Source of the DNA: Chiayiivirga flava
GTDB lineage: Bacteria; Pseudomonadota; Gammaproteobacteria; Xanthomonadales; Xanthomonadaceae
Reading direction: 5' to 3'
Assembly: GCF_014202825.1 (NCBI RefSeq)
Contig: NZ_JACHHP010000003.1
Location: 456,229-520,228 of the forward strand
Length of the DNA stretch: 64,000 nt
The notes beneath the pieces were generated by a model, which ran no database searches, was not told the DNA's origin, and worked only from the letters and a program-made list of their open reading frames with translations. Positions 2,759 through 50,722 of this stretch are shown here, piece after piece (position 1 is the stretch's first letter; every line of letters begins with the position of its first letter). The translations under genes and the position numbers were made by a program.

Positions 2759-5700
2759 ATGACCACGCCCTGGCGGCGGCGCGCCCGCCGCACGCGCCGC
2801 GTGCTGGCGTACGGGACCGCGACGCTGCTGATCCTCGCGGCCGTGGCGGTGGCACTCGCCAACCAGTTCCTGCCGTTGATCGCGCGCCATCCCGAGCGCG
2901 TCGCGGCCTGGCTGTCCGAACGCATCGGGCAGCCGGTGACGCTCGATGCGGTGACGGCGCGCTGGAGCCGCTCCGGGCCGCTGCTGACGGTCGACGGACT
3001 GCGCCTGGGCAGCGGCGACGACGCGTTCGAGGTGGCCCACGCCGATCTGCTGATCCGCATCTATGCCGGCGTCCTGCCGAACGTGCCGCTGACCGAGCTG
3101 CGCCTGCGTGGCCTGGATCTGCGCCTGGCACGCGATGCCGACGGCAGGTGGAAGCTCGACGGACTGAGCGCCGCGCCGCAGCAGGCATCGCCGCTCAAGC
3201 GGCTGGAAAACGTCGGCGAGCTGCGCGTGGAGCAGGCGCGCCTGCGTCTGAGCGATGCGGAGTCGGGCCGCAGCTGGGACCTGCCGCGCATCGACGCACG
3301 CCTGCGCGCGATCGGCGGCCGCTTCCGGCTCGGCGTGCGTGCCGCGGGCCGCGGCGACGACGGCACGCTGCACGCCGTCGCCGACGTCACGCACGATCTG
3401 CGCAGCGGCCGCCTCTACCTGGAGGGCCGCGCACGCGACTGGCTGCCGCTGCTCGGCGACGGCGCCATCGCCGGAATCGACGTACTGCAGGCGAGCGGCA
3501 CCGTGCAGGTGTGGGCCGACGTGGGCGACGGCGCCCTGCAGTCGGCGCGTGCCGAACTCGCGCTCGCTCCGCTGGTGCTGCGTGGCGCCGCGCCGGTGCA
3601 GATCGCCGATCGCAGCTTCGAGCCGCGCTACGGCATCGAGAGCGTGCGGGGTGCGCTGCGCTGGCAGCGCGACGCCGACGGCTGGCGCGCGGACGCCGCC
3701 GATCTGGTGTTCGACAGCGGCGACACCGCGATGACGGTCGGCGCGCTGGCGGTGCGATCGAGCGCCGCCGACGGCTGGCGCGTGCGCGCCGACGCGCTGG
3801 AAGTGTCGCCGCTGCTGTCGCTGTTCATGCTGAGCGAGCGGGGCGCGCCGGGCTTGCGCCGCTGGCTGTTCGAGGCTTCTCCGCGCGGCCGCATCGATGG
3901 CCTGGACCTGCACTGGCGCGATCGCGCGCAGTTCGACGTGCGGGCGACCGTGACGGGGCTCGGCTGGCAGCCGGCCGGATCGATGCCGGTGCTGCAGGGC
4001 GTGACCGGCCGCATCGACGGCGATGCGCAGGCGCTGCGCCTGCAACTGACGCCCGGCGCCTGGCGGGTGGAGGTGCCGGGCGTGTTGCGCGGCCCGTTCG
4101 TGCCGCAGGTCGATGGCGAGATCCTCGCCTTCCGCACGGCCGACGCGTGGCGCATCGAGACGCCTGCGCTGCATCTGATGGAACCGGACTACCAGATCGC
4201 GCTGGCGGGCGGCATCGAGCTGCAGGACGACGGATCGCGCCCGCTGCTGGATCTGCGCGCCGATGTCGGCGCCGCGCCGATCACCGCGGCGAAACGTTTC
4301 TGGGTCATCAACAAGATGCCGCCGAAGGCGGTGGAATGGCTCGACGAAGCCTTCGAGCAGGGCCGCGTCACGCACGGCAGCGCGCTGTTCCGCGGCGACG
4401 CCGACGACTGGCCGTTTGCCGCCGGCGAAGGTCGCTTCGAGGCACACGCCGACGTGGCCGACACCCGCCTGCGCTTCCGCAACGATTGGCCGGTGGGCGA
4501 AAACGTCAACGGAAGCGCCACGTTCGTCAACGCCGGCCTCACGTTCGATGTACGCGGCACACTGACCGGCAACAGCATCGCGTTCGCGCGCGGCGGCATC
4601 GAGAACCTGCGCGACCCCATCCTCGCCATCGACGCGGAAGGCGAGGGCACCGGCGGCACCCTGCTCACGCTGCTGCGCCGCAGTCCGCTGCAGGAGAAAT
4701 TCGGCAGCTATCTCGACGGCCTGAGCATCGGCGGCGAGGCGCGCGTGCAGGTAGGCCTGGTGCTGCCGCTGAAGAAGGAACTGGGCGAGCCGCGCGTCGA
4801 AGGCCAAGCGGACCTCGTGCGCGCGGACCTGCGCGACAGCAAGTGGGATCTGGCATTCGATGGCGCCAGCGGCCGCGTGCGCTTTTCCGAGAAGGGATTC
4901 TCCGCCGAGGAACTCAATGTCGGTTTCGGCGGCGCCGTGGCAACGCTCAACGTGGCGGTGGGCGACTACACCTCGTCCGAGGCGTGGATCGCGCAGGCCA
5001 GCCTGCGCGGGCGCTTCGGCGTCGATGCGTTGCTCGCGCCGCGCGAGGCACTGCACTGGCTGCGCCCGTGGCTGCGCGGCGAATCGAACTGGGTGCTGGA
5101 ATTGAGCGTGCCGCGTGGCGACGGCGCGCGCGCGGCGGTGCAGAACCTGCGCGTTGCCTCCGATCTGGTCGGCACCGCGATCGACCTTCCCGCGCCATTG
5201 CGCAAACCTGCCGAAGAACGCCTGCGCCTTGTGCTCGATGTCGGACTGCCCACCACCGACGGCGCCATCGATCTGCATCTGGGCCAACTGCTGCGCCTGC
5301 GCGGCAGGCTGTCGGATGCGTCGGGGTTTGCCGGTGTCGCGGCGTTCGGCGATGCGCCCGAGGTGCCGATCCCGACCACCGGTCTGATCGCCGTCGGCCA
5401 GGTCCCGGTGCTCGATGCCGCAGGCTGGGCTGGCGTTGCGCTGTCGGGCAGCGGCTCCGGCGGCGGCGGACTCCTGCGGGCGGACCTGCACGCCGGCGAA
5501 CTCGACGTGCTCGACCGCGCCTTTGCCGAAACCCGCCTGCGCTTCGAACGCGACGGCGACGAATCGATCCGCTTCGATCTTGCCGGCGCCACCCTGCAGG
5601 GCAACGTCACCGTGCCGTTGCGCGACCTGCCGACCCGCGGCATCAGCGCGGACTTCGAACGTCTGCACTGGCCCAGCGCCGCGCCCGGCGCCGGCGCGAC

Positions 5701-6649: not shown

Positions 6650-8419
6650 TCAGTCCAGCACGCGCTCCGAGCGCATGACCGGATACAGGTTCAGGCGCTC
6701 GTCGTACGCCGAATGACGGCGATAGAAGAAATCCAGGCGCGCGTTCGGGTCGGCGGCGAAGGCCGCATCGGCGTCGAGCTTGCGCGCGAATTCCTCGCGC
6801 AGCGCGGGATCGGCCGCCAGCTGCACGCGCGCCACGTCCTCGGCCACGTAGGCTTCCATGTACTCCTTCTGCTCGAAGGCCTGGTTGAAGAATCCCCAGG
6901 CGGCGAGCGAATCGCGCGCGCGCGGCTCCAGCAGCGTCATCAGCAGCCGCGACTTCGGCTGCGCGATCGGAACGAACAGCGCGCCCGCGCCGACATCGCG
7001 CCGCTCCTCGCGCCATTCGCCCTCCAGCACCAGGGTCTGGTGGCTTTCGAGCGGCGCGGCGGCGAATGTCGTCTTCGTGGCGCGGAACGTCTGCAGCGGC
7101 ACCGCGCGGCCTGCGACATCGAGGCGGCGGTAGGCGATTGCGTGCGCATCGAGCTTGCGCGCCACGAGGTCTGCGAACGCCGCCGGGACCACGTATCCGC
7201 CGCGCGGTGCTTCGATGGCGAGCGAGGGCCGCATGTCGTCGCGCATGGGCACGTTCCACACCTGCGGCTTGCTGTCGTCGTAACGCGTCATCAGCGTGCC
7301 CGAGATTTCCGACGGCATGCGGGTGTATTCATAGCCGCGAAACGCGATCGTGCGCACTGCATCGCCCGGGGCATATTCGAGCGCCACCGGCGTGCCGCCG
7401 AGTTCACTCGCCGCGGCATCGGCCGCGCCGGCGGCACGCAACCAGGACGCGCCGTCGCGCGCGGCCAGTGCGAGCGTGTCGACGATCAGGTTGCGCGTGA
7501 TCCGCACGCGCACCGGGTACGGCTTCCACGAATGCGTTTCGAGCAGCATGCCGAAGCGGTTGCGCAGCCAGTAGTAGCCGGTGGAAAAACGCGCGGCCGA
7601 GACGCTGTCGGCGAAGCCCGACATGGGATCGTCGGATTTCACGAACGAGGGATAAAACGCGAGCGGCAGCGACCCCTGCGCCGTCAGCGTGCGCAGCAGG
7701 TCCGCGGTGAGCGCCTTGCCGGCCGTACGCAGGCCCGCGTCGCCGGCGTAGAGCGGCTCGGTCTGCACCGACATGTCGTGTTCGAATTTCGCGCCGTCGG
7801 TGACGTGCAGATCCACCGTCAGGATCGGCTCCCAGCGGTTCGCCAGCGCCAGCATCGCCTGCATTTCGGGTGCATCGACCTTCACATAGTCGCGGTTGAG
7901 GTTGAAGTTCTGCGCCGTCGTGCGCCAGCCCATCGCCTCGGGGCCGTTCTGGTTGGGACGGTTCCAGCGTCCGAAGCGTTCGTGGCCATCGACGTTGAAG
8001 ACCGGCACGAACAGCACGACGACCTTGTCGAGCGCGCCGCGCGCCGCGTCGCCGTCGAGTACCTCGCGCAGCGCGAGGAAGCCCGCATCCTTGCCGTCGA
8101 TTTCGCCGGCATGGATGCCGGCCTGGAACTGCACCACGGGCAACTGCTTCGCGCGCGCGGCGGCGGGGTCCAGCGCGCCGCTGCGCGAGACCACCAGCAG
8201 TTTCATCGGGCGGCCCTCCGGCGTTGTGCCGAAGGTTTCGCAGCGCACCGCGTCCGGGTGGCGCTGCGCGAAGGCCTCGCACAGCGCGACGGTTTCGTCG
8301 TAACGACCGGTCTGCCGGTACGCGGAGCGCTCGCCGAGCGTGGCCAGATCGTTGGCCGGCGAGAGTGCCGGCAGCAGCGCCACGCACGTGGCGGCGACAA
8401 GGGTGCGGAGTGTGGGCAT
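6650..8419 (-). CDS. Secreted M14-family zinc carboxypeptidase
   Basis: The 589-residue product starts at the ATG ending at 8419, chosen because a signal peptide follows it (hydrophobic run to about A22). The longer upstream open frame is not coding. The zinc site of M14 peptidases is visible: HAGE gives H103 and E106, and VDLH gives H205. NLNRDY supplies a likely substrate-binding arginine region, and ETHSW gives the candidate general base E294. The family removes C-terminal residues from peptides or acts on peptidoglycan or glutamyl substrates; the substrate here is unknown. The C-terminal 280 residues look beta-rich. It is expressed alone, divergent from the delta-60 repeat gene and convergent with yhdP. 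Confidence 0.85.
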   Translation of the reverse strand: MPTLRTLVAATCVALLPALSPANDLATLGERSAYRQTGRYDETVALCEAFAQRHPDAVRCETFGTTPEGRPMKLLVVSRSGALDPAAARAKQLPVVQFQAGIHAGEIDGKDAGFLALREVLDGDAARGALDKVVVLFVPVFNVDGHERFGRWNRPNQNGPEAMGWRTTAQNFNLNRDYVKVDAPEMQAMLALANRWEPILTVDLHVTDGAKFEHDMSVQTEPLYAGDAGLRTAGKALTADLLRTLTAQGSLPLAFYPSFVKSDDPMSGFADSVSAARFSTGYYWLRNRFGMLLETHSWKPYPVRVRITRNLIVDTLALAARDGASWLRAAGAADAAASELGGTPVALEYAPGDAVRTIAFRGYEYTRMPSEISGTLMTRYDDSKPQVWNVPMRDDMRPSLAIEAPRGGYVVPAAFADLVARKLDAHAIAYRRLDVAGRAVPLQTFRATKTTFAAAPLESHQTLVLEGEWREERRDVGAGALFVPIAQPKSRLLMTLLEPRARDSLAAWGFFNQAFEQKEYMEAYVAEDVARVQLAADPALREEFARKLDADAAFAADPNARLDFFYRRHSAYDERLNLYPVMRSERVLD

Positions 8420-11572: not shown

Positions 11573-13213
11573 TCAGACGCTCGCGCTCAGCGCGCGAATC
11601 TCGTGATTGAGGATACGGTCGTTGTCCGAATAGTCGACCGGCACCTCGATCAGATCCACGCCCGGCATCGCCAGCGCACGTTCCAGCAGCCCGGCGAAGT
11701 CGTCGGCGGATGCCGGCCGGTGCCCGCGCGCGCCGTAACTCTCGGCGTACTTCACGAAGTCGGGGTTGCCCGTGTCCATACCGAAGTTGGGAAACTCCAT
11801 GTGCGCCTGCTTCCACTTGATCATGCCGAACGCATCGTCGCGCAACACGATGACGACGAGGTTCAGATGCAGGCGGACGGCGGTTTCCAGCTCCTGCGAG
11901 TTCATCATGAAGCCGCCGTCGCCCACCACCGCCACGACATTCCGGTCGGGGAACACGATCTTGGCCGCCATCGCCGACGGCAGCCCCGCGCCCATCGTGG
12001 CGAGTGCGTTGTCGAGCAGCAGGGTGTTCGGTTGCCGGCAGCGGTACTGCCGCGCGAACCAGATCTTGTAGATGCCGTTGTCCAGGCAGACGATGTCGCG
12101 CTCGCCCATCACGCGCCGCACGTCGGCCACGATGCGCTGCGGGTACATCGGAAAGCGCGCGTCGTCGGCGCCGTCGCGCAGTTGCCCGGCGAGCGCGGCG
12201 CGGACGGTGTCGAACCAGGAAAAATCCCAGTGCGGCTGCGGTTCGAGCCGCTGCTTGAGCCGCCACACCGAGTTGGCGATGTCGCCCACGACCTCGATCT
12301 GCGGGAAGTACACCGTGTCCACCTCGGCGCTGAAGTGGTTCACGTGGATCACCGTGCGGCGGCCACGGTTCATGAAGAACGGCGGCTTCTCGATCACGTC
12401 GTGGCCGACGTTGATGATGCAGTCGGCGCGCTCGATCGCGCGGTGCACGAAGTCCCCGTCCGAGAGTGCCGCGTTGCCGAGCCAGAGCGGATGGGTTTCG
12501 TCGACCACGCCTTTGCCCATCTGCGTGGTGAAGAACGGAATGGCGAGCTTGTCGACGAATTCGCGCAGCATCTTGCTGGTGGTGCGGCGGTTCGCGGCGG
12601 CTCCCACCATCAACAGCGGACGCTTCGCGTTGTCGATCGCCTCGACCGCATTGGTGATGGCCTTGTCGTCTGCCACCGGTCGGCGCGACGCGCTTTTCGG
12701 GATCAGGATGGCATCGGTCGGGTCGCCCGCGATGTCTTCGGGCAGCTCCAGATGCGTGGCGCCGGGCCGTTCTTCCTCGGCCAGCCGGAACGCCTCGCGC
12801 ACGCGCGCCGGAATCGTGTCGGCCGAGACGATCTGGCGGGTGAACTTGGTCAGCGGCTTCATCATGTCGACGATGTCGACGATCTGGAAATGCCCCTGCT
12901 TGCTCGACTTGATCGGCTTCTGCCCGGTGAGCATGCACATCGGCATCGCACCGAGCTGCGCATACGCCGCCGCGGTGACGAGGTTCGTGGCGCCGGGTCC
13001 GAGGGTGGAGAGGCAGACGCCGGCCTTGCCGGTGAGGCGGCCGTAGGTGGCCGCCATGAAACCCGCGGCCTGTTCGTGCCGGGTCAGGATCAGGCGGATA
13101 GTGGACGTGCGCAGCGCCTCGAGCAGATCGAGGTTCTCCTCGCCCGGAATGCCGAACACGTACTCGACACCTTCGGCTTCAAGCGCACGGACGAACAGGT
13201 CCGATGCCTTCAT
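11573..13213 (-). CDS. Acetolactate synthase large-subunit-like TPP enzyme
   Basis: The 546-residue product has the three-part fold of TPP-dependent pyruvate decarboxylase-type enzymes. Residues 1-165 are the Pyr domain with catalytic E47 in RHEQAAG, about 190-330 the central domain, and 370-530 the PP domain with the TPP/Mg motif GDGGFMMNSQEL. The N-terminal GIPGEENLDLLEAL and TLGPGATN resemble catabolic AlsS-like acetolactate synthases. No small regulatory subunit gene is adjacent, so it is probably not the biosynthetic IlvB/IlvG. An adjacent aldehyde dehydrogenase suggests a catabolic pathway (2-oxoacid decarboxylation or condensation, then aldehyde oxidation), which is inference. The ATG ending at 13213 is chosen because the family begins MKASDLFVRALE. 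Confidence 0.85.
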   Translation of the reverse strand: MKASDLFVRALEAEGVEYVFGIPGEENLDLLEALRTSTIRLILTRHEQAAGFMAATYGRLTGKAGVCLSTLGPGATNLVTAAAYAQLGAMPMCMLTGQKPIKSSKQGHFQIVDIVDMMKPLTKFTRQIVSADTIPARVREAFRLAEEERPGATHLELPEDIAGDPTDAILIPKSASRRPVADDKAITNAVEAIDNAKRPLLMVGAAANRRTTSKMLREFVDKLAIPFFTTQMGKGVVDETHPLWLGNAALSDGDFVHRAIERADCIINVGHDVIEKPPFFMNRGRRTVIHVNHFSAEVDTVYFPQIEVVGDIANSVWRLKQRLEPQPHWDFSWFDTVRAALAGQLRDGADDARFPMYPQRIVADVRRVMGERDIVCLDNGIYKIWFARQYRCRQPNTLLLDNALATMGAGLPSAMAAKIVFPDRNVVAVVGDGGFMMNSQELETAVRLHLNLVVIVLRDDAFGMIKWKQAHMEFPNFGMDTGNPDFVKYAESYGARGHRPASADDFAGLLERALAMPGVDLIEVPVDYSDNDRILNHEIRALSASV

Positions 13214-13297
13214 GCGACGCTCCCGCGATGGCGATCCCGGAAGCATAGCGGCTCGCGCACGCCACGCGTGCACACGCGTGCGGGGCGTGACTGCGGG

Positions 13298-14890
13298 TCA
13301 GCGCGTGGTGTCGACCGCGGGCCGCAGCGGGATGCGGAACAGGTAGACCGGTTCCGGAAACGGCCCGTCGAGATTCACGCCACTGATGCGCGTGGCGCTC
13401 ATGTTCCACGGCAGGATGTCGGCGATGTCCGTCGGCCCCGATGGTGGCGAGCCGAACCCGCCGAGATTGATCAGGCTGCAGTCGGCCGTGTCGTCGCCGA
13501 GTCCGACCTCGCATGCGATCGACGAGGCATAGGACCCGCCGCCGAACTCGGACGGCGGGCCCCACTGCTCGTCGGGGACCGCGATCAGGGCGGAGTAGGT
13601 TTCGCCATCGAGGCTGACGGTTTCCACATCGGCGAACGTGTAGGCCGACGACTTGAAAAACGGAGGCGCGTCGATCGGCGTCGTCGCGTAGACACTCGTC
13701 TGCGCCCAGGCGCCCCCGAGTGCCGGAAGCGCATGTGGCCCGAATTCCTCGGCCAGCGGATCGCCGGCAAGCGGCTTGTCCAGGTAGTCCGCCCCGAACG
13801 GCAGCAACGACAGCGCCAGCGGCGCGTCATCGCCGATGGTCAGTCGCGCACGCGTTGCGCCGACGAATTCGAGGCGCATCGACCGGGTCGAATCGATCTG
13901 CGGATCGGTGTGTTCGCACGCGATGCAGCTGCCGCCGGCGAACGTGACGAGGTCGGCCTCCAGCACGTCGCCGACGGGGGCACCGGTGGCGAGCGACCAC
14001 GTGGCGTTGCCGTCGGCGTCGTAGCCGTAGACACCGACGGCGATCAGGTCCGGGCGCACGTCGATGGTCACGCCTTCTCCGAAGCGACCGGCGATCTGCC
14101 AAATGCCCGACTGCGGTTCGTTCGGAGTCGACGGCACACGGAAGCCGATGGCCGTGGTCGGTGCGCCGGCGATGCGCATCGCGGACAGGTCGGCGGGATC
14201 GAACCGTGCTCGCTCGCTGGGCGGCAAGGTGTCGTGGTGTGCGTACAGCAGGCACAGGCTGGGTGGATCTTCCGCGGCCGGGTTCGCACCGCACGCGACC
14301 GAGTAGTCGCCGCCGTCGAGAGTCCCATCCGCAGGTTCGGTGGCGAAACTCGCGCCTTCGTCGGTGATCTGCATGCTGATGAACGTGACATCGATGCTGC
14401 CCATGCCGCCCGGCGCGGTGTCGGAAAAGACCCAGCGCCCGCAGAGGTCGGGAATCGCGTCGGTCGTGCCGCTCGCGCCCGCAAGATCCAGACCCTCGAC
14501 GTAGTCCGCGCCGAACGCAAGCTGCCGCATCGGACGCGCCGGGCCGTCGCCGATGGACACGGTGCCGGCCGCACTGGCCTGGAACTGCAGCGTCACGGCA
14601 AGCGAATCGACCGCTGCAGGCGATCCATCGCCGCGGGCGAACCGCGTCAATTCGACGGCGAGCACGCCGTCCACCAAGGCCCCGGCGCCGGAGTACCAGG
14701 TGCCGTTGCCGGCATCGTCGTAGGTGTAGAGCCCAACGCCGATGGCATCGTCGCGCACATCGAGCGTGAGGCCGGAGCCGTTGGCGCCGTCGATCTGCCA
14801 GACGCCGTCGGCGGGAACCCACACCTGCGCCGACGCGGTGGCGGACAGGCCTGCAAGCAGGACGGCGAGCAGCGGTAATTTGGTTGCCAT
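13298..14890 (-). CDS. Secreted duplicated-domain protein, paralog A (unknown function)
   Basis: The 530-residue product has a signal peptide ending near ASAQV. The mature part carries the same module twice. The first begins GVWQIDGANGSGLTLDVR, with GLYTYDDAGNGTWYSGAG; the second, near residue 265, begins GIWQIAGRFGEGVTIDVR, with GVYGYDADGNATWSLATG. Each module ends with a line like LAFGADYVEGLD or LLPFGADYLDKPL. Two cysteines in SCIACEH sit at the same place as in the neighbour. The module resembles the uncharacterised SGxG...YTYD..G.xxW repeats common in secreted proteins of this order. It is the downstream member of a tandem pair (113-bp gap). I do not recognise a function. Confidence 0.75.
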   Translation of the reverse strand: MATKLPLLAVLLAGLSATASAQVWVPADGVWQIDGANGSGLTLDVRDDAIGVGLYTYDDAGNGTWYSGAGALVDGVLAVELTRFARGDGSPAAVDSLAVTLQFQASAAGTVSIGDGPARPMRQLAFGADYVEGLDLAGASGTTDAIPDLCGRWVFSDTAPGGMGSIDVTFISMQITDEGASFATEPADGTLDGGDYSVACGANPAAEDPPSLCLLYAHHDTLPPSERARFDPADLSAMRIAGAPTTAIGFRVPSTPNEPQSGIWQIAGRFGEGVTIDVRPDLIAVGVYGYDADGNATWSLATGAPVGDVLEADLVTFAGGSCIACEHTDPQIDSTRSMRLEFVGATRARLTIGDDAPLALSLLPFGADYLDKPLAGDPLAEEFGPHALPALGGAWAQTSVYATTPIDAPPFFKSSAYTFADVETVSLDGETYSALIAVPDEQWGPPSEFGGGSYASSIACEVGLGDDTADCSLINLGGFGSPPSGPTDIADILPWNMSATRISGVNLDGPFPEPVYLFRIPLRPAVDTTR

Positions 14891-41071: not shown

Positions 41072-43735
41072 CTACGGGACGCAGATCGCGTAGACCGTGA
41101 TGCCGATGTTCTGGTTGTTGTTGTAGGCCACGATCGTCCCGGTCCAGGCGCCGCTGGTCGACGGCCAGTTGCGGGCGATCTGGTAGTAGGACGTATTGGT
41201 GGTGTTGATCCCCCCGCCGATCACGCGCGGAGTCTGCGCCGGACAGGTGGCCGTTGCCGACAGCGTTTCCAGATTGTCCAGATCGGTGTTGCTGTTGGTC
41301 GCGGTCACGATGTTGACCGTGGTCTGGGCAAAGTTGCCGCCCGGACCCTGCGCGCCTTGCGGACCCTGCGGACCGACCGCACCGGCGGGGCCGGTGTTAC
41401 CGACCGGACCTTGCGGGCCGGCCGGGCCGGTCAGGCCGATGGGACCTTGCGGGCCCACGGCGCCGGTGAGACCGATCGGACCCTGAGGGCCTGCCACACC
41501 CGCCGGACCCTGTGCGCCCGGGGCGCCGGTTTCGCCGTCGGCGCCCGCGGGTCCTTGCGGCCCCGGGGCGCCGGTGTCACCGGCGGGGCCCTGTGGACCG
41601 GCCGGACCGACAGCACCCGTCAGGCCGATCGGGCCCTGCGGGCCTGTCGCGCCGATGTCGCCGGCGGGGCCTTGCGGGCCAGCCGGACCGACAGCGCCGG
41701 TCAGGCCGATCGGACCTTGGGGACCTTCCGCACCGGCCGGGCCCTGCGGACCGGTCGCTCCGGTGTCCCCGGCGGGGCCTTGCGGGCCGGCCGGACCGAC
41801 GGCGCCGGTCAGACCGATCGGGCCTTGGGCGCCTTCCGCACCGGCCGGGCCCTGCGGACCTTCCGCTCCGGCCGGACCTTGCAGACCTGTCGCGCCGGTG
41901 TCACCGGCGGGTCCCTGCGGGCCGGCCGGGCCGACAGCACCGGTCAGGCCGATCGGTCCCTGCGGACCTTCTGAGCCGGCCGGACCTTGCGGACCTGTCG
42001 CGCCAGTGTCACCGGTGGGGCCTTGCGGGCCAGCCGGGCCGACATCACCGGTCAGGCCGACGGGTCCTTGCGGACCTTCCGCGCCGGCCGGACCTTGCGG
42101 ACCCGTCGCGCCGGTGTCACCGGCGGGGCCTTGCGGGCCGGCCGGACCGACCGCGCCGGTCAAACCGATTGGTCCCTGCGGACCTTCTGCGCCGGCCGGG
42201 CCCTGCGGACCTGTCGCGCCGATATCACCGGCGGGGCCCTGCGGGCCGGCCGGGCCGACAGCACCGGTCAGGCCGATCGGTCCCTGCGGACCTTCCGCGC
42301 CGGCCGGACCCTGCGGACCCGTCGCGCCGGTGTCACCAGCGGGGCCTTGCGGGCCGGCCGGGCCGACACCACCGTTCAGGCCGACCGGTCCCTGTGGACC
42401 TTCCGCTCCGGCCGGACCTTGCGGACCGGTCCCGCCGGTGTCACCGGCGGGGCCCTGCGGGCCGGCCGGACCGACCGCGCCGGTCAAACCGATTGGTCCC
42501 TGTGGACCTTCCGCTCCGGCCGGACCTTGCGGACCGGTCCCGCCGGTGTCACCGGCAGGGCCCTGCGGGCCAGCCGGACCGACAGCGCCGGTCAGACCGA
42601 TCGGACCTTGGGGGCCTTCCGCACCGGCCGGGCCCTGCGGACCGGTCGCGCCGGTGTCACCGGCGGGGCCTTGCGGGCCGGCCGGGCCGACATCACCGGT
42701 CAGGCCGATCGGGCCCTGCGGACCTTCCGCACCGGCCGGGCCCTGCGGACCTGTCGCGCCGGTGTCACCGGCGGGGCCTTGCGGGCCAGCCGGGCCGACA
42801 TCACCGGTCAGGCCGATTGGTCCCTGCGGACCTTCCGCGCCGGCCGGACCAACATCACCGGTCAGGCCGATCGGCCCCTGCGGACCTTCCGCACCGGCCG
42901 GGCCCTGCGGACCTGTCGCGCCGGTGTCACCGGCGAGGCCTTGCGGGCCGGCCGGACCGACCGCACCGGTCAAACCGATTGGTCCCTGCGGACCTTCCGC
43001 GCCGGCCGGGCCCTGCGGACCTGTCGCGCCGGTGTCACCGGCGGGGCCTTGCGGGCCGGCCGGACCGACCGCGCCTGTCAAACCGATTGGTCCCTGCGGA
43101 CCTTCGGCACCCGTCGGGCCTTGCGGACCGGCCGGGCCGACATCACCGGTCAAGCCGATGGGCCCTTGCGGACCTTCCGGCCCGGTGTCGCCCTGCGGTC
43201 CCGCCGGGCCGGCTTCGCCAGCCGGGCCCTGCGGACCGGCCGCCCCGTCCGCGCCCGCCGGGCCCACCTCGCCCTGCGCGCCGGCCTCGCCCTGAGGGCC
43301 CATGTCTCCCTGGGGCCCCTGCGGACCAATCGGCCCGATCGCGCCTTCGGCCGCGTTGAGAGCCCACTGCGCCACCGGCGCGGTGGAGATGGGCTGGCGC
43401 GGCAGTGCAGAGCCGTCCACGCTCACCTGCAGGTAGGTCTGTTCGCCGGTGAAGGCGCCGGGAAACGCGAGATTGATGCTGAACACGCCGCGCACCACCG
43501 GGTAGTCCGGCTCGTTGATGGTGCTGCCGATCTGGGTGCCGCCGTTCTGCTCGGTCCAGAGCGAGAAGGCGAGGTCGCGGGTGCCGTTGACGGCGGCGCC
43601 GTTCTGCTCGAGGCGGCCCTGGTAGACGAAGTCGGGCAGCTGCATGGCCTTGTCCGCACCCGGAGCCGCCAGCGCGGCGGCGCCCGGCACGGTGAGCGCA
43701 AGCGACAGCGCAAGAAACAGTGTGCGGTGGTTCAT
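41072..43735 (-). CDS. Secreted collagen-like repeat protein
   Basis: The 887-residue product has a signal peptide (to about A27) and an N-terminal globular part (28-130) containing [16 protein letters not shown], typical of Gly-X-Y surface proteins of this order. A continuous run of about 220 Gly-X-Y triplets fills 131-800. A C-terminal globular domain (801-887) has two cysteines (C831, C885) and Asn/Thr-rich strands. The triplets form 36-residue units such as [18 protein letters not shown] plus [19 protein letters not shown] trimeric, rod-like extracellular fibre is expected; its ligand is unknown. The ATG is preceded by GAGGG and overlaps the stop of the upstream small gene (ATGA). Confidence 0.9.
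41570..43330 (-). repeat. Tandem ~108-bp coding repeats in the collagen-like gene
   Basis: The coding DNA of the Gly-X-Y region is made of about sixteen near-identical 108-bp units, some shortened, with sporadic codon differences (GCG/GCA, GAC/GAT). The units differ mainly at the third triplet (GAV, GDV or GGV) and in GAT versus GGT. The region is prone to length change by slippage or recombination and to assembly error. The antisense frames also stay open here because of base composition. Confidence 0.85.
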
Positions 43736-44058
43736 GGTGTGCAACCCTCTTGGTCGTTGCCTTCAAAGCTGTCCTTGAAGAGCGTGAAAGTGCCGGTGGA
43801 AATCGGGGAGGTACCGACCGTGGCGGGGAATCCGCTGGTGATCCGGTAGGTGCCGTCGGACACGGTGCCTGCGGCGGGTTCGCCGACGGTGCTGACGAGC
43901 GCGTAGCAGTCGTTGCTGGACACGGCGCCGCCGCTGGCGGTGGTGCCGTTCCTGAGGGTGTAGCCGCCGTCGCCGGCCGACGCGAAGCCGGCGAGCGAGG
44001 CGGCGACGAGCAGTGCGAACGCACGTCTCGCATGTCGCCGGGTGCTGGGTGGTTTCAT
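43732..44058 (-). CDS. Small secreted protein coupled to the collagen-like gene
   Basis: The 108-residue product starts at the ATG ending at 44058 (GGGGA upstream). It has a basic, then hydrophobic signal ending near FASAG, then a mature part of about 80 residues: [39 protein letters not shown] and [16 protein letters not shown]. Near its end it carries [10 protein letters not shown], similar to the C-terminal LFRNTFE of the delta-60 protein in this window. Its stop overlaps the ATG of the collagen-like gene by four bases, so the two are made together. Function unknown; a surface or fibre-associated partner is a guess. Confidence 0.7.
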
Positions 44059-44657: not shown

Positions 44658-46373
44658 TCATTCGAGCGTGAACCACTGCACCTCGACGCGGCGGTTGAGG
44701 TCGCTGTCGGGTCCTGCCGGTTCTTCCCAGCCGCGGCCGACGAGCTCGATGCGCTCCGGCCCGATGTTCGGATACTTCTTCACCAGCGCGTCGCGCACGG
44801 CCTGCGCGCGCTGGCGCGACAGTTCCATCGCCTTCAACGCCATGCTGCGCACCAGCGGCTGGCCGCCCTGCTTCTCGAATTCGGCCAGGCGCGCGTTGTC
44901 CACGTGCCCGCGCAGCAGCACGATCGAGCCCGGGCTCACCTGCAGGAAGTTCTTGATCGTCTCCAGGTAGCCGACGTTTTCCTGCGCGCTGTTGTCGAGG
45001 TTCGACGAGTTGGGCTCGAAGAAGAAGCGGATGTCCTTGGACAGCAGCGCGTCGCCTTCGAGCGAGACGTTGCCGCCGGTCTTGATCGGCGCGATGGCGA
45101 TGGTCTGTCCGGCGAATTCGCTGGCCTTCTGCAGCGCATCCAGCGCCGTGGTGTCGACGAAGCGCGCCGGGTCCGCCGGGTTCCGGATCACGTTGCCATA
45201 GGCGAGCACCGACGACTGGAAGATGCCCTGGAACGAGCCGGCGGCGTCGATCTGGCCGCTGAAGAACGCGAGGTTCTCGGGCAGGTTGGACAGGTGCACC
45301 TTGGCGAGCTCTTCCTTCGTGTCCGCCTCGCTCCACGAGAAGGCCTTGGCGATCACGGCGAGGTTGCGCTCGGGCTCGTCGCGCACGCGGCGGTTGCCGT
45401 CCAGCAGGCCGTGCACGAGGCCCTTGACCCATTCGGGCTTGGCCTGCGCGAAGCCCTTGTTGACCAGCAGCAGGTCCGCGACGATCAGCAGGTTGCGGTT
45501 GGAGACCAGCGTCTTCGCGCTGCCGCCGGACGCCGCGACCACTTCGTCGGTGCGCGGCGACCAGCCCACGCAGCCGTTGAGCCGCGGCCGGCCGGTGCCG
45601 AGTTCGGCTTCGTACGCGTCGCAGGCGACGAACGCGTCTTCGTAGAACACCAGGCCCAACTCGCCGGCGGCCGGGCGCGCGTCCAGATCGCGCAGCACCT
45701 TCACGGGCACGCCGGCTTCCGAGGCCAGATAGCGGATGAAGAATTCGCTTTCGTTGAACTGCGAGGCCGCGAGGATCTTGCCCTTGAGCTGGTTGATGCT
45801 GGTGATGCCGCTGTCGACCACGACCTGGTCTGCGCCGCGCGAGAAGCCGATCTGCGCCGGCACCGTCACGTCGAACTGGCGGCCGAGCACGGCGAGCACG
45901 TCGGCGGTCGTCACGCTGGCGGCGACGCGGCCGTTGTTGAGTTTCGACCAGCCTTCCTCCTCGCTCAGCGTCAGGCGTACCTGGAAGCCATAGTTGCGCG
46001 CGAAAAACGAATCGGGGTTCGGCGCGAGCCCGCCGTTGGCAACGATGAGGCCCGCATAGCCTGCGTACTCGCTCATGTCGACATCGACGATGTCGCCCTG
46101 CGGCTGGTACGGCGCGGGCTGGTCGAGCGTGGGCGTGCCGGTGACCGGTTCGATCGGATCCGGCGCGTCGCCCGGCGGCGTCGCGGGCGCATCGTCTCGG
46201 TCGTCCGCGGGCGTGTTGGCCGTGGTGCGGTCGCGCGGCGTGTCGTCGCCGCCCATGTCCTTCAGCGCCAGCCAGCCGCCCAGGCCGAGCAGCGCAAGCA
46301 CCAGCAGCACGGTGATGAACTTGCCGGCGGCGTTGCCGCCTTGATGGCGCGTGTGACGCGTGCAGGATTTCAT
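44658..46373 (-). CDS. Substrate-binding protein / OmpA-domain fusion, membrane anchored
   Basis: The 571-residue product has a short basic N-terminus, one membrane segment (19-37), an acidic Pro/Asp-rich linker (40-95) and a periplasmic binding-protein-like domain (about 95-425; DSGITSINQLKGKILAASQF, LVFYEDAFVACDAYE). An OmpA/MotB-type peptidoglycan-binding domain follows (about 440-571; FFFEPNSSNLD, LLRGHVDNARLAEF, ELVGRGWEEP, LNRRVEVQWF). It should sit in the inner membrane, bind a small solute and grip peptidoglycan. No ABC permease or ATPase of the import type is adjacent, so it is unlikely to be a transporter part. It is the last gene of a set with a membrane coiled-coil protein, an AAA+ ATPase and PspA. 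Confidence 0.82.
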   Translation of the reverse strand: MKSCTRHTRHQGGNAAGKFITVLLVLALLGLGGWLALKDMGGDDTPRDRTTANTPADDRDDAPATPPGDAPDPIEPVTGTPTLDQPAPYQPQGDIVDVDMSEYAGYAGLIVANGGLAPNPDSFFARNYGFQVRLTLSEEEGWSKLNNGRVAASVTTADVLAVLGRQFDVTVPAQIGFSRGADQVVVDSGITSINQLKGKILAASQFNESEFFIRYLASEAGVPVKVLRDLDARPAAGELGLVFYEDAFVACDAYEAELGTGRPRLNGCVGWSPRTDEVVAASGGSAKTLVSNRNLLIVADLLLVNKGFAQAKPEWVKGLVHGLLDGNRRVRDEPERNLAVIAKAFSWSEADTKEELAKVHLSNLPENLAFFSGQIDAAGSFQGIFQSSVLAYGNVIRNPADPARFVDTTALDALQKASEFAGQTIAIAPIKTGGNVSLEGDALLSKDIRFFFEPNSSNLDNSAQENVGYLETIKNFLQVSPGSIVLLRGHVDNARLAEFEKQGGQPLVRSMALKAMELSRQRAQAVRDALVKKYPNIGPERIELVGRGWEEPAGPDSDLNRRVEVQWFTLE

Positions 46374-47230
46374 CGCGATTCTCCTTCGGATACGGCGGTG
46401 CGGGACGTGCGGCCGCGCAGCACGTGACGTGGCAGCGAGGCGGAGTCGTTGAAATCGAGCGAGCCGATGAGGTCGCGCTGGCTGTCGAGCCAGCGGTTGG
46501 CTTCGTTGAACGAGGCGGTGAGTGCGTCGAGCGAGCTGCCGATGCGCGATTCGTCGGTGGCGAGCAGGGTCTGTTCGCGGATCAGCGCCACCTGCTGGTC
46601 GATGCGCGAAAGCTCGGCGTCGATGCGCTCCTTGCGCCGCGCCGCTTCGATGTGCGCGGCCTGGCGTGCGTCGATGACGGCCTTCTGCTGCTCCAGGCTG
46701 CGGCGCAGGTCCGGATCGACATCGCTCGCGGCGAGGCGTGCATCGATCGAGGTTTCCTGGTCGGCGAGCCGCGCGCTTTCCTTCTTGGCGGTGGCCACCA
46801 CGCGCGAGATCGCCTCCAGTGCCGACAGCAGGCGCAGATGCAGCCAGACGAGCTGTTCCACGCTGTCGGCGTGCGCCGCCATCACCGGGCTCTTGTCCAG
46901 GCTCGCGACGATGTCGCTGGCGCGTTGCTCGAGCGCCGCCTGGCGCGCGCGGTCGGCGGCGTCGAGCGGATCGAGCAGGGCGCGGTAGCGCTGCTCGTCC
47001 GGCTGCAGCGCGCGCACCTTCGCATCCACCGTGGCGCGGAACCGCTTGTTGTTCGCCAGCCACGCGAGGTACGCGATCTCGAGCCCGGCGCCGACGATGA
47101 AGAAGCCCGGGCTCAGCACCGCGCCGAGCATCGCGAACGTGGCCAAGCCGAACCAGTTCGGCGGGATCGGCATGCCGAACGGCCGCGCGGTGAACGCGGC
47201 CCACCAGTACGACGGCGGCTTCGTCGTCAC
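46370..47230 (-). CDS. Membrane-anchored coiled-coil protein of the PspA/AAA+ operon
   Basis: The 286-residue product starts at a GTG overlapping the AAA+ gene stop (GTGA). After SYWWAAFTARPFGMPIPPNW, a hydrophobic stretch at about 26-56 forms one hairpin or two short membrane segments. The rest (57-270) is charged, helical and rich in Glu, Arg, Ala and Gln, with heptad character such as RASDIVASLDKSPVMAAHAD and QQKAVIDARQAAHIEAARRK. No enzyme motif is visible. Four-base overlaps with both neighbours suggest a complex with the AAA+ protein and the OmpA fusion. I do not recognise the family by name. Confidence 0.72.
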   Translation of the reverse strand: MTTKPPSYWWAAFTARPFGMPIPPNWFGLATFAMLGAVLSPGFFIVGAGLEIAYLAWLANNKRFRATVDAKVRALQPDEQRYRALLDPLDAADRARQAALEQRASDIVASLDKSPVMAAHADSVEQLVWLHLRLLSALEAISRVVATAKKESARLADQETSIDARLAASDVDPDLRRSLEQQKAVIDARQAAHIEAARRKERIDAELSRIDQQVALIREQTLLATDESRIGSSLDALTASFNEANRWLDSQRDLIGSLDFNDSASLPRHVLRGRTSRTAVSEGESR

Positions 47231-48873
47231 GCGGCGCCTCCGAGGTGGCGCAGCTCTTCGGGCACGAAGGCCATGTCGGTGGCTTCGCGGATGGCGATGC
47301 GCATCTGGAACTCCATCGTGTCGGGCGGCACCGGCGGCTGGTAGCCGTGCAGGCTCTGTTCGAGTGCGGCCAACGACTGCATCGGGCCGGTGCGCACCAG
47401 GCGATACACCTTCACCGCCAGCGCTTCGGCGGCACCCGGCGTGAGCAGGGTCGGCAGCGGCAGATGCGCGATCGCGTCGGCACCGGGCGCGATGTCGAAG
47501 CGCTTGAGCAGCGCGTTGAGCAGCGCTGCGCTCTCGGCCACGGTGGTGGTGGGCAGCAGGGGAATCTTCACGTCGACGCGGCCCGGGCGCTTGAGATCGA
47601 CTTCGATCAGGTCCGGGCGCGACGAGGCGAGGATCCACATCAGCCGGCCGCGGTTGTCCGAATCGCTCATTTCCTGCGCGATCATCGAGTAGATGCGGCC
47701 GGACAGGCCGCTGTCGCTGCTGCCCGAGTCGCGCCGGCCGAGGGTCTGGTCGGCCTCGTCGACGAACACGATGCAGCGACCGAGCGCGCGGATCAGGCGG
47801 AAGATCTTCTCGAGGTTGCCTTCGCTCGATCCGACCCAGCGATCGCGGAAATTCTTGAGCTTGACCACCGGCACGCCGGCCTCGCCCGAGAGGCATTCGA
47901 CGAGATACGTCTTGCCGGTGCCGACCGGCCCGCAGAACAGGTAACCCATCGGCAGCGCGCGCAGGTCGGCCGCGCGCCACAGTGCGATGTCCTGGCGCAG
48001 CCAGGCCTTCAGCGCCGGTGTGGAGTGATAGTCGTCCAAGGTGCGGTGCGATTCGATGAACTCGATGAGATTCGAGGCATCGCCTTCGATCAGCTCCTTC
48101 TTCGCCAGCGCCCAGTCCGTCGGCCCGAGCACCTTGCCCTCGTGCGCGCGGCGTTTCACCAAGCTCTGCAGCGCGCTCACGCTGACGCCGGACAGCGCGT
48201 CGGCGGCCTGTGCATCGCCCTGGTTCACATCGAAGGCGCGGGGATGGTCCACGCGCAACTGTGCGAGCGCGCGCTGCAGCACGGCGGCATCGGGCAGCGG
48301 CACGCGGATGCGCGACACGCGCGGGTTGAACGCGACCTGGGGATGCAGGTCGTTGAGGTTGTCGGCGATCAGCAGGGTGACGAAGTGCTGCTCGGCGAAC
48401 GGTGCCTCGGAGGCGAGATCGCGCACCAGGCTTGCAAGGCCCGCGACCTCGAAATCGCCCTGGCGGCTGCCGGGCATCAGCTGGTCGGCGCCGCGCACGA
48501 TGAAGGCGATGTGTTCGTCGTCGCCGCGCCCGAGCGCGCGCAGGTTGGCGCGGTAGCGCACGTAGCGCGCGACCACCTCGACCGCGGCGCGCGGATCGCG
48601 CGGCCAGGGTTGCAGTTCCTTCGCCGCGGGCCACTGCTGCACGCGGTCGGCGCCGCGCAGCACCGCGAGGCCGTTGCCGGCGTCGTACGAGAACACGACG
48701 TGGAAGCCGGCGAGCAGTTGCGCATCGATGAATTTCGTGAGTCCGACGAGGTGGCCCTGCAGCGGGAAGCGGTCGGAGACCGCGCCGTACAGCACGAACT
48801 GGCTATGCGCGCCGCTTTCGTAGGCGAGGGCGAGCTCGCGGATCCAGGCGGGGCAGTCGGCGTCGAGCGTCAT
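47227..48873 (-). CDS. AAA+ ATPase of the PspA-associated operon
   Basis: The 548-residue protein has a C-terminal AAA+ module with Walker A at 315-322 (GPVGTGKT), Walker B at 367-375 (CIVFVDEAD; D372, E373), a sensor region WILASSRPDL and an arginine finger candidate in KRPGR. The N-terminal half (1-280) looks like a degenerate AAA domain: QFVLYGAVSDRF, AFIVRGADQLMPG and LIADNLNDLHPQV sit where functional motifs would be, but lack a P-loop. It has no membrane segment. It probably remodels a membrane-bound partner, by analogy with PspF or other PspA-linked ATPases; that is inference. pspA is 358 bp upstream on the same strand. Confidence 0.82.
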   Translation of the reverse strand: MTLDADCPAWIRELALAYESGAHSQFVLYGAVSDRFPLQGHLVGLTKFIDAQLLAGFHVVFSYDAGNGLAVLRGADRVQQWPAAKELQPWPRDPRAAVEVVARYVRYRANLRALGRGDDEHIAFIVRGADQLMPGSRQGDFEVAGLASLVRDLASEAPFAEQHFVTLLIADNLNDLHPQVAFNPRVSRIRVPLPDAAVLQRALAQLRVDHPRAFDVNQGDAQAADALSGVSVSALQSLVKRRAHEGKVLGPTDWALAKKELIEGDASNLIEFIESHRTLDDYHSTPALKAWLRQDIALWRAADLRALPMGYLFCGPVGTGKTYLVECLSGEAGVPVVKLKNFRDRWVGSSEGNLEKIFRLIRALGRCIVFVDEADQTLGRRDSGSSDSGLSGRIYSMIAQEMSDSDNRGRLMWILASSRPDLIEVDLKRPGRVDVKIPLLPTTTVAESAALLNALLKRFDIAPGADAIAHLPLPTLLTPGAAEALAVKVYRLVRTGPMQSLAALEQSLHGYQPPVPPDTMEFQMRIAIREATDMAFVPEELRHLGGAA

Positions 48874-48983
48874 TGGGCGGTCGGTTTCGTGGCTCTTGAG
48901 GTGCTTCTCGCCGTCATGGAAAGGACGGAGGGCCGCAGGAACGATGGCGGAGGCTGACTCTTGCTTTGGCTTTTGAGCCCTTT

Positions 48984-49008
48984 CCCTTCCCCCTTGATGG
49001 GGGAAGGG
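48984..49008. repeat. Palindromic intergenic repeat 1 between pspA and the AAA+ gene
   Basis: CCCTTCCCCC and GGGGGAAGGG form a perfect 10-bp stem with a TTGAT loop, followed by GGGTTGGGATGGGGG, a common form of short repeat in xanthomonads. It lies in the 358-bp gap after pspA, where I see no gene. Confidence 0.65.
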
Positions 49009-49168
49009 TTGGGATGGGGGTGGCTCTTGATCCTGGTTCTCGAACGACTCGCGTTGGAAATCAGCGGCGGGCGGCAATCAATGTTCAGGCAGGCGCGATG
49101 GTGTAGTAACCACGGGTGGATCGGTCAGGACACGCCACGTGGCGGGCTTCGCCGGACCCTCTCCCCAA

Positions 49169-49191
49169 CCCCTCTCCCGGGGGGAGAGGGG
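49169..49191. repeat. Palindromic intergenic repeat 2 between pspA and the AAA+ gene
   Basis: CCCCTCTCCC and GGGAGAGGGG form a perfect 10-bp stem around GGG, preceded by CCCTCTCCCCAA. Together with the copy at 48984 it may form a REP-like pair flanking about 160 bp. It lies 40 bases after the pspA stop and could weaken read-through into the downstream genes. Confidence 0.65.
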
Positions 49192-49231
49192 CTTTCGCTG
49201 GGCGGGCGGTGACGCGCACACGACGCGGACG

Positions 49232-49990
49232 CTACGCCGATTCGCTGCCCGCTTGCGGCGTCGCTGCGCCCATCGTGCGCGATGTCGCCGGTGCCGCCGG
49301 CGCCGCGCCTTCGATGCTGAGGCCTTCGGCCGCGGCAAAGTCCGCCAGCGCCTGGTCCGCCAGTGCCTGCTGCTCGGATTCCTTGAGGTTGATGTCGGTC
49401 ATGTCGACCGAATCTTTCGCCACGCGCGCGCGGCCGGCGGCCTTGGTGCGTTCCTCTTCCACCATCTCGTGCAGGCGGTTGAGGGTGTCGCCGGAGCCGC
49501 CGATGGTGCCGATCATGCCGGCGGCCATTTCGTTCATTTCGGCCAGCGCGTTTTTCATCTTCATGTCGTTGATCGCGCCCTTGAGGCTTTCGATCTTGGC
49601 GCGCGCGGCGTTCATCGCCACGTCGCGGGCCTTGACGAGGTTCTTGTAGGTCTCGTCGGCCTGCGCGGCCTGCTTGCGGTTTTCGTCGAGCTCGCGCGTG
49701 ACCGTCTGCAGGCGCAGCGCGAGCTGCGCGGCCGCGGCCTGGTTGCCGGCGCGCAGGTGCGCCTTGGTCTTGGCGCGCAGGTCCGCCTCGTCGGCCTCGA
49801 GCTTGCGCACCTGGCTCATCAGACGCTCGGCCAGCCCCGCGTGGGCGGCCAGACTCTGGTTGTAGCTGCCGATCTGCTTGCGCAGGTTTTCCTGCTCCAG
49901 CTCCAGCAGGGCTTCGGGGTTGCGCTTCTCGATGCCCTTGATGAAGAGCGAAAAGAAGCCGCGGACGATATTGGCCAATCGGGTGAACAT
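49232..49990 (-). CDS. pspA: PspA/IM30 family membrane-stress protein
   Basis: PspA/IM30 (ESCRT-III-like) proteins polymerise on the inner membrane and preserve it under stress. The 252-residue product has an amphipathic N-terminal helix (MFTRLANIVRGFFSLFIKGI) and long coiled-coil helices (QENLRKQIGSYNQSLAAHAG, LRLQTVTRELDENRKQAAQA). It ends with an Ala/Pro-rich tail of about 30 residues absent from E. coli PspA (222 residues). I see no sigma-54 promoter of the E. coli pspA type and no pspF, pspB or pspC here. It is followed on the same strand by the AAA+, coiled-coil and OmpA-fusion genes. Confidence 0.88.
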   Translation of the reverse strand: MFTRLANIVRGFFSLFIKGIEKRNPEALLELEQENLRKQIGSYNQSLAAHAGLAERLMSQVRKLEADEADLRAKTKAHLRAGNQAAAAQLALRLQTVTRELDENRKQAAQADETYKNLVKARDVAMNAARAKIESLKGAINDMKMKNALAEMNEMAAGMIGTIGGSGDTLNRLHEMVEEERTKAAGRARVAKDSVDMTDINLKESEQQALADQALADFAAAEGLSIEGAAPAAPATSRTMGAATPQAGSESA

Positions 49991-50269
49991 GCCGGCTCCG
50001 TCGGAGGGTGGACGCGGGGATTCTCGCAGCTTCCGGCCGCGAAGTGGGCGCAGATGCCTGTCAGGACGCGGTTTCGCCGCGAACGTGACGGCCGCCACCT
50101 TCCCACGCGGAACGGCACGGCGCGGGGACAGGCGGGCACTCGCTGAGCCGCGCGCTGCCTTGCTGCGTACGCCTTGGCAACGACGGCGCAGAACGGGCGC
50201 TGCGCCGCTCCGTCCGACACATCACACCACGACGCCAACACGACACCACGACACCACGAGGGGACCGCC

Positions 50270-50722
50270 ATGACGACGAAAACGCGGATGCTGGCCTGTC
50301 TGTGCATCGCACTCCTGCCGCAGCTTGCGGCGCACGCGGCGACCGCATCGACACGCCTGGAGACGGTGGACGACAAGGTGCTGCGCGACAGCACGACCGG
50401 ACTGCGCTGGATGCGCAAGGACAGCGGCTACGCGGTCGACTGGTTCGCCGCGCGCGACTACTGCGCCAAGCTCGGCCCCGGCTGGCGCCTGCCCGCGGCG
50501 GACGAGCTCGACCGCATCGGCGAAGCCGTTCGCGCCGTCACCGCCGGCTGCAGTGGCACGGCCTGCGCCGCAGCGTCGCCGCTGAAGCTCGGAGACGGCT
50601 GGATCTGGAGCGACACGTTCAACGGCATATCCGATGCCATCGCCGTGAACCTGCTGCGCGGCGAGCGGCAGGTGACCTATCGCGCCAAACGCCAGCGCGC
50701 GCTGTGCGTCGGCGGCGCGTGA
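50270..50722 (+). CDS. Secreted DUF1566 (Lcl_C-like) protein
   Basis: The 150-residue product has a signal peptide (to about HAATA) and one DUF1566-type domain: VLRDSTTGLRWMRKD, FAARDYCAKLGPGWRLPAADE and WIWSDTFNG. The final cysteine near LCVGG would pair with an earlier one. The domain is common in secreted proteins, with no known activity. A GACACCAC-type short repeat lies just upstream (about 50217-50260). The ATG at 50270 follows GAGGGGACC. Confidence 0.75.
   Translation: MTTKTRMLACLCIALLPQLAAHAATASTRLETVDDKVLRDSTTGLRWMRKDSGYAVDWFAARDYCAKLGPGWRLPAADELDRIGEAVRAVTAGCSGTACAAASPLKLGDGWIWSDTFNGISDAIAVNLLRGERQVTYRAKRQRALCVGGA

Follow-up and report, generated by a model that had tools for sequence, protein, structure and literature searches.

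A conserved gene unit in Chiayiivirga flava pairs a divergent PspA with a two-module AAA+ ATPase: a candidate ESCRT-III/Vps4-like system of the bacterial inner membrane

An association of PspA genes with genes for AAA proteins has already been reported by Ravi et al. (2024; PMC11237479, section 18), who, in the accessible text of their paper, proposed ATP-dependent remodeling involving PspA, without experiment, and a link to transport. In that text, the neighborhood comprises PspA, an AAA protein with an inactive N-terminal copy, a transmembrane helical protein, and a solute- and peptidoglycan-binding fusion of a periplasmic binding protein (PBPB) domain with OmpA; an ABC ATPase and permease are optional (i.e., they "may occur in longer operons"), and "Snf7 homologs with a TM segment" are mentioned. 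Here, we describe a related locus in a 64,000-nucleotide stretch of the Chiayiivirga flava genome (assembly GCF_014202825.1, contig NZ_JACHHP010000003.1, positions 456,229 to 520,228; hereafter, the window). Four minus-strand genes, spanning positions 49990 to 44658 of the window, encode a divergent PspA/IM30 protein of the ESCRT-III superfamily (pspA; 49990 to 49232; 252 amino acids), a two-module AAA+ ATPase (48873 to 47227; 548 amino acids), a membrane-hairpin coiled-coil protein (CC; 47230 to 46370; 286 amino acids, GTG start), and an inner-membrane fusion of a solute-binding protein (SBP) with OmpA (SBP-OmpA; 46373 to 44658; 571 amino acids). Like the published neighborhood, the window has PspA beside a two-AAA protein with an inactive N-terminal copy, together with a PBPB-OmpA fusion. 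However, judged against the accessible text, the clade of the window differs in its order PspA-AAA-CC-SBP, in which neither an ABC ATPase nor a permease was found, and homology of CC to the Snf7 proteins mentioned there could not be confirmed. The ABC-free order, a tail motif of PspA, and an SBP-LysM form (all described below) are not in that text, although the supplement may hold an ABC-free variant; no report of this motif or of SBP-LysM was found in the open-access literature searched. The core gene association is hence already known, while the ABC-free clade, the tail motif, and loci with SBP-LysM and SBP-VWA fusions are the additions made here. Neither the motif in the PspA tail nor an exchange of wall-binding modules seems to have been reported in the searchable literature.

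In archaea and eukaryotes, the C-terminal MIT-interacting motif (MIM) of ESCRT-III proteins binds Vps4; the accessible passages of Liu et al. (2021; PMC8281802) call it unclear whether PspF acts in a Vps4-like manner or Vipp1 is served by an ATPase of this kind. Those of a 2024 PspA structure paper (PMC11746142) suggest "chaperones or PspF" for PspA disassembly, and no PspA-AAA system of the present kind was found in those of Popp et al. (2022; PMC9239133). The window system resembles ESCRT-III/Vps4 in combining a polymer protein of the ESCRT-III superfamily with a classical AAA protein whose C module is Vps4-like and whose pore loop has an aromatic residue, and possibly in having a C-terminal docking peptide; both an intact Walker A/B and Arg-finger region (81 of 81 sequences) and a fold close to that of Vps4 are present. 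It differs in that the AAA protein has two modules, as in Cdc48, and in that the system is bacterial and has the additional SBP-OmpA protein. The classical Psp system (PspF-PspABC) likewise pairs PspA with an AAA+ protein, namely PspF, a transcription activator of the NtrC type that has a helix-turn-helix domain (accessible text of PMC11237479). The AAA protein of the window is, by contrast, a classical AAA (PF00004), and this difference in class rules out a Psp system with PspF. In the window genome, PspA_IM30 occurs at one place, no PspB was found, and the sole PspC domain lies on another contig (C1) than the window (C3); an SBP-OmpA fusion, as an earlier note made from the window's sequence had remarked, is outside the classical Psp set. 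With the double-ring AAA proteins (i.e., Cdc48/p97, NVL, Rix7, and Pex1/6), the window protein shares tandem modules and a whole-length fold match, but its N module is without an ATP site, its genes stand in a membrane operon context, and no substrate-recognition domain was matched in it by Pfam.

The four genes form a real, conserved, and coherent unit. The earlier note had placed them with correct coordinates and frames and had pointed to overlaps of four bases among the last three, and 4-bp overlaps do join AAA to CC and CC to SBP in the window; pspA is set apart by a spacer of 358 bp (48874 to 49231, no strand), which is longer than in most relatives. The SBP-OmpA protein was found in 14 of the 149 genomes of the same family (own genome included), and the order PspA-AAA-CC-SBP and the strand are kept in all 13 same-family loci fetched besides the window, in one of which (L029) the SBP gene is cut by the contig end. 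A fifteenth genome of the family (G125) has PspA-AAA-CC and then a contig end before the SBP gene. The note had proposed a search for genomic co-occurrence, with rare neighborhood speaking against a unit; the AAA protein, the SBP, and this type of PspA occur in the same 3 of 369 genomes of the class (the own genome, G463, and G487), and none of them was found in any other genome of this sample at the thresholds used (AAA, 1e-80; SBP, 1e-40; PspA, 1e-30; up to three candidates scored per genome for AAA and SBP and up to seven for PspA). In G487, the genes are ordered CC-AAA-PspA-SBP. The system is patchy, being present in 15 of the 149 family-sample genomes and in 3 of the 369 class-sample genomes.

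In a scan of 84,980 species genomes with an AAA profile, 344 of 387 candidate stretches passed confirmation, of which the best 80 loci were kept; as the best 80 of 344, found via two peptide patterns of the AAA protein, this set favors close relatives. Many of the loci are metagenome bins, and gene starts in the relatives were chosen by script. The order PspA-AAA-CC-SBP is the most frequent (45 loci), followed by PspA-AAA alone (16), PspA-CC-AAA (4), SBP-CC-PspA-AAA (3), and CC-PspA-AAA (2), with 10 others that include 7 with AAA alone. In line with the PspA-AAA+ partnership named in the earlier note, PspA of this subfamily adjoins the AAA gene in 71 of the 80 loci. Of the nine loci without it, L040 and L085 are cut by a contig end, which leaves 71 of 78 that can be evaluated. 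CC was recognized in 57 loci and SBP in 49, a count that includes the cut copies of L034, L058, L072, and L088. Among the 45 same-order relatives, the AAA-CC overlap of 4 bp recurs in 37 and the CC-SBP overlap in 13, and the gap between pspA and AAA has a median of 6 bp. Since this gap is 30 bp or less in 31 of the 45, pspA is part of the unit and the window spacer is unusual; the notion of pspA as an unrelated neighbor is ruled out, and the rare neighborhood that the note had named as a result contrary to its model is not what is seen.

Chance adjacency of the four genes is likewise ruled out by the widely conserved order, because conservation over several bacterial phyla would not arise from chance clustering. 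In a tree of the AAA proteins (quick method, midpoint rooting only), the 46 same-order proteins, window included, all fall on one side of a branch with an SH-aLRT support of 100. That side holds 52 rows, the additional six being two contig-cut loci and four paralogues from Steroidobacteraceae. The same-order clade belongs to Pseudomonadota (i.e., Lysobacteraceae, Pseudomonadaceae, Steroidobacteraceae, Rhodospirillaceae, and others), plus one planctomycete bin (L078), and named strains of Pseudoxanthomonas and Pseudomonas carry the operon.

In the AAA protein, AAA (PF00004; 87 bits) alone passes its Pfam cutoff, and it matches residues 312 to 437 only. This C module contains Walker A (residues 315 to 322), the pore-loop residue W346, Walker B (367 to 375), and the Arg-finger region (426 to 432), and the GPVGTGKT of Walker A, W346, the DE of Walker B, and a DLKRPGR stretch are invariant in 81 of 81 AAA sequences. 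W346 aligns with a W in the equivalent loop of Cdc48 D2 and is presumably the pore residue that grips the substrate. In the N module (residues 1 to 265, approximately), the place of the P-loop mostly reads G-N-V-x-D-R and that of Walker B is without DE, both places having been picked by eye from the predicted strands. Structure prediction from 51 sequences (predicted local distance difference test [pLDDT], 85.3; low confidence at 342 to 346 and 380 to 390) yielded a fold that aligns over its full length with both modules of p97, Rix7, Afg2, and NVL (p97, Foldseek E of 1.9e-18; NVL, VIA Z of 19.6 over 466 residues). Given this whole-length alignment to two-module AAA proteins and the missing P-loop, the N module is degenerate, which bears out the two-lobed ATPase with one degenerate module of the earlier note; by sequence and model, it is ATP-dead. 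The model also matches Vps4 (3eih_B; VIA Z of 20.0, root mean square deviation of 2.9, 255 aligned residues), and the single-module matches are tied at Z values of 19.6 to 20.6 (FIGNL1 at 20.6, spastin, Vps4, and p97 D2). The protein was not filed as Vps4, because it has two modules rather than a single module with an N-terminal MIT domain; no MIT domain was recognized in it by Pfam. A PADLOC search for an anti-phage role returned a similarity to the IetA AAA protein (34 bits) and weak matches (11.9 to 13.5 bits) to JetC, DndD, and PD-T4-6.

The window PspA matches Pfam PspA_IM30 (PF04012) at 43.4 bits (cutoff, 33.9) with residues 2 to 221, covering positions 3 to 217 of the 220-position profile. 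By this match, it is a full-length member of the PspA/IM30 family and may polymerize on membranes. Its N-terminal helix is amphipathic, with a hydrophobic moment of 0.58 (residues 1 to 18) that is reached by 1.1% of shuffles. No solved relative was found by phmmer at 0.1. The 15 operon copies of the family sample score 28 to 49 bits with PspA_IM30, the lowest being a frameshifted copy, and the best non-operon PspA proteins of that sample reach 185 bits; on these sequence scores, the operon PspA is a distinct, divergent branch. In one same-family bin (L026), pspA (13227 to 14027, minus strand) is frameshifted after residue 97 or so, by mutation or sequencing error.

After a linker, the window PspA ends in a tail with RTMG at residues 238 to 241. 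A tail of the form [RK]xMG, following a linker of variable length, is present in 61 of 69 AAA-linked PspA proteins (the PspA proteins of L045 and L101, frameshifted or cut, being excluded), and the remaining 8 keep [RK]xM without the G. In the family sample, none of the other PspA_IM30 proteins examined (50 of 52 such matches, one each from G089 and G137 having been left out) has the motif in its last 60 residues. By analogy with the binding of Vps4 to the C-terminal MIM of ESCRT-III proteins, we propose the tail as a docking peptide for the AAA protein, for which it is a good candidate on sequence.

Starting from the gene unit, the domain make-up, the conserved motor residues, the two-module fold, and the tail motif, which are supported by sequence and prediction, we lean, on balance, toward a dedicated inner-membrane machine of the ESCRT-III/Vps4 kind, in which the ATPase threads PspA subunits from membrane polymers. 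In the mechanism that we infer, which extends to ring assembly, the substrate, the direction of action, the role of CC, and sensing, PspA would polymerize on the cytoplasmic face of the stressed membrane. The AAA+ protein would form a Cdc48-like double ring, with the inactive N module as a scaffold and the C module as the motor; it would catch the [RK]xMG tail of PspA and thread subunits out of the polymer, thereby recycling or constricting it. CC, a putative membrane hairpin with a cytoplasmic coiled coil, might hold or nucleate PspA and the ATPase on the membrane. SBP-OmpA, anchored in the inner membrane and attached to peptidoglycan, would place the machine under the wall and would probably report a periplasmic ligand or the wall-membrane geometry. 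The complete picture is put forward tentatively: an ESCRT-III/Vps4-type engine proper to some bacteria, in which the inner membrane would be remodeled by a Cdc48-like double-ring unfoldase that grips its matching PspA subfamily by the [RK]xMG tail, while an exchangeable solute receptor tethered to the wall (SBP-OmpA and possibly, in other lineages, SBP-LysM or SBP-VWA) would govern it.

Several observations weigh against this mechanism. PspA-AAA stands without recognized CC or SBP in 16 of the 80 loci and PspA-CC-AAA without SBP-OmpA in 4, so SBP and CC do not appear to be strict requirements, although four of these 20 loci (L084, L090, L101, and L106) have less than 1.5 kb downstream of the AAA gene and may be incomplete; 7 loci hold AAA without PspA nearby. 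The role of CC is a guess, since homology to PspA is not detectable by hhalign (probability, 1.4), and its best structural matches (Z of 9.6 or less) do not stand out from the noise level of helical proteins. The operon branch cannot be told by a low PspA_IM30 score, with seven non-operon matches of the family scoring 21 to 54 bits. The tail control compares different subfamilies, and the tail could serve another purpose. Finally, SBP-OmpA elsewhere sits with an ABC permease and ATPase, which favors transport.

CC is predicted, from 46 sequences (pLDDT, 88.7), to have a membrane hairpin (helices 24 to 38 and 41 to 60) followed by a long antiparallel helical hairpin (115 to 167 and 173 to 223). 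It had no Pfam or NCBIfam match at an E value of 0.1, and searches for a solved relative gave a best E of 0.011 by sequence, which is unconvincing, and of 0.12 by fold. Snf7 chains match it at a Z of 7.5, and Snf7 and BAR score no better than unrelated helical proteins. The net charge is +2 on both flanks of the membrane part; these positive charges on both sides of the transmembrane hairpin suggest, weakly, that the coiled coil is cytoplasmic, in which case any signal between CC and SBP-OmpA must cross the membrane. At the C-terminal end of CC (46370 to 46440, minus strand), an LPxxV motif follows the helical part, and its L266, P267, and V270 are invariant in 13 sequences of the family; it is possibly a second docking peptide.

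A different substrate would put CC at the center: the AAA protein might work on CC or on other membrane proteins as a Cdc48-like extractor, with PspA merely protecting the membrane meanwhile. The 4-bp overlap of AAA and CC in 37 of the 45 same-order loci, which is tighter than the pspA-AAA junction, agrees with this idea, as do the Steroidobacteraceae paralogues, whose fetched stretches show no PspA of the operon type. We nevertheless regard it as quite unlikely, for PspA is the most frequent partner (71 of 80 loci) versus 57 of 80 for recognized CC, and CC is less conserved (20 to 64% identity to the window over 46 sequences) than PspA (56 to 83% over 39 sequences). The paralogues in question are second AAA proteins in L075, L076, L077, and L080, with an identity of about 55% to that of the window. 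The stretches fetched for these loci also gave neither CC nor SBP, and a small family of 126 amino acids lies within 4 kb in L075, L077, and L080. Povalibacter uvarum additionally carries the full operon (L066).

The SBP-OmpA protein consists of a membrane anchor (residues 20 to 38, approximately), an acidic, Pro-rich linker (about 41 to 95), the SBP domain (about 95 to 440), and an OmpA-like domain (451 to 561). Its N terminus has a charge of +4 and a hydrophobic peak of 2.47 at residue 19, as for a single membrane anchor, and the linker of some 55 residues has a charge of -9. Pfam OmpA matches residues 451 to 561 at 47.4 bits, and within this domain G489-H-V-D492 and L518-S-R-x-R522 are invariant in 12 of 12 sequences; we take these to be the places where OmpA-like domains hold peptidoglycan. 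The SBP domain of the window matches weakly (SsuA family, 35.5 bits versus a cutoff of 163.5; NMT1, 14.7 bits), and the homologues in L083 and L087 pass NMT1 (28.9 and 25.1 bits versus 20.5).

These two loci (Planctomycetota and Verrucomicrobiales, respectively) and L088 (Sumerlaeota; the contig holds only the end of the SBP-OmpA gene) are composed of SBP-OmpA, a BPD_transp_1 permease, an ABC ATPase, CC, PspA, and AAA, and in L093 and L098 an ABC_tran ATPase precedes CC at the contig end. Since ABC genes adjoin SBP-OmpA in these relatives, the SBP may have been, or may still be, a transport part and not a sensor. SBP-OmpA would then be the receptor of an ABC importer whose permease and ATPase are missing from the operon of the window clade and perhaps encoded elsewhere, and PspA, AAA, and CC would organize or repair the surrounding membrane. 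The BPD_transp_1 and ABC_tran genes between SBP-OmpA and CC-PspA-AAA in the first three loci and the ABC ATPase before CC in the other two favor such a role, as does the transport link in the accessible text of Ravi et al. (2024; PMC11237479). The window, however, has no ABC permease or ATPase gene between pspA and the stop of SBP-OmpA, and the 45 same-order loci gave no match to the permease model and no operon-type ABC ATPase (best, 145 bits versus at least 498 in the five ABC-type loci). The two models were built from those same three permease and five ATPase sequences; because the permease model matched only its own three, distant permeases could be missed, and its reach is unproven. The unit of the window clade yielded no ABC transporter genes, and we consider an importer receptor unlikely.

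The presence of the SBP in 45 window-type loci without recognized transporter genes would also suit a ligand-gated sensor, in which the SBP binds a metabolite of the wall or envelope and its occupied state is signaled across the membrane to CC, switching the ATPase. Other SBP fusions near AAA genes point in the same direction, namely SBP_bac_3-LysM in L103 and SBP_bac_11-VWA in L074 and L108. Against it, no signaling domain was recognized, nothing points to a contact of SBP-OmpA with CC, and SBP-OmpA was not found in 20 of the 71 PspA-bearing loci, contig-cut and ABC-type loci aside; we hold this gating scheme to be rather improbable, and sensing by a wall-tethered SBP-OmpA receptor, as included in our own mechanism, is similarly doubtful. 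The signaling model of the earlier note, in which the OmpA fusion senses a ligand or the wall-membrane distance, the coiled-coil protein transmits it, and the ATPase remodels PspA polymers, is partly supported: the gene unit and the AAA partner stand, whereas the coiled coil is probably cytoplasmic, the SBP may serve transport, and the gene set and the proposed remodeling are already in print (PMC11237479).

In L103 (a Desulfuromonadales bin), the fusion of SBP_bac_3 with a C-terminal LysM (7249 to 8331) lies directly before pspA. The SBP_bac_11-VWA fusions stand beside PspA/AAA genes at 11802 to 13574 in L108, where a further helical, probably transmembrane protein without a Pfam match is encoded at 13743 to 14495, and at 4545 to 7541 in L074, together with a second SBP_bac_11 gene. 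The wall-binding module hence has two forms, OmpA (window) and LysM, the latter from the one locus L103, and SBP-VWA comes from the two loci L074 and L108. Such fusions are present in at least 3 of the 20 PspA- and AAA-bearing loci without recognized SBP-OmpA or ABC genes. The system is rare in the phyla of L103 and L074, because AAA was found at an E of 1e-100 only in the starting genome (1 of 148 and 1 of 145 genomes, respectively).

Around pspA (48800 to 50300), a promoter and terminator scan found no sigma-70-like promoter sites and no minus-strand terminator-like sites; the three terminator-like sites that it gave lie within pspA on the plus strand. A C/G-rich stretch (49140 to 49200) inside the 358-bp spacer resembles, by eye, a small repeat element, and BLAST returned only weak similarity elsewhere in the window; this element may have driven pspA and the AAA gene apart. 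Upstream of pspA, on the opposite strand, are a gene with an Lcl_C domain and one for a LuxR-type response regulator. Downstream of the unit, a large collagen-repeat protein (41072 to 43744, minus strand; 890 amino acids; Pfam Collagen) may carry a signal sequence, and its C-terminal part is distinct.

With its conserved motor residues and a short, removable substrate tail, the operon provides a dedicated candidate ATPase for the disassembly of PspA polymers. If SBP-OmpA controls the machine, wall or nutrient sensing would be linked to membrane remodeling.

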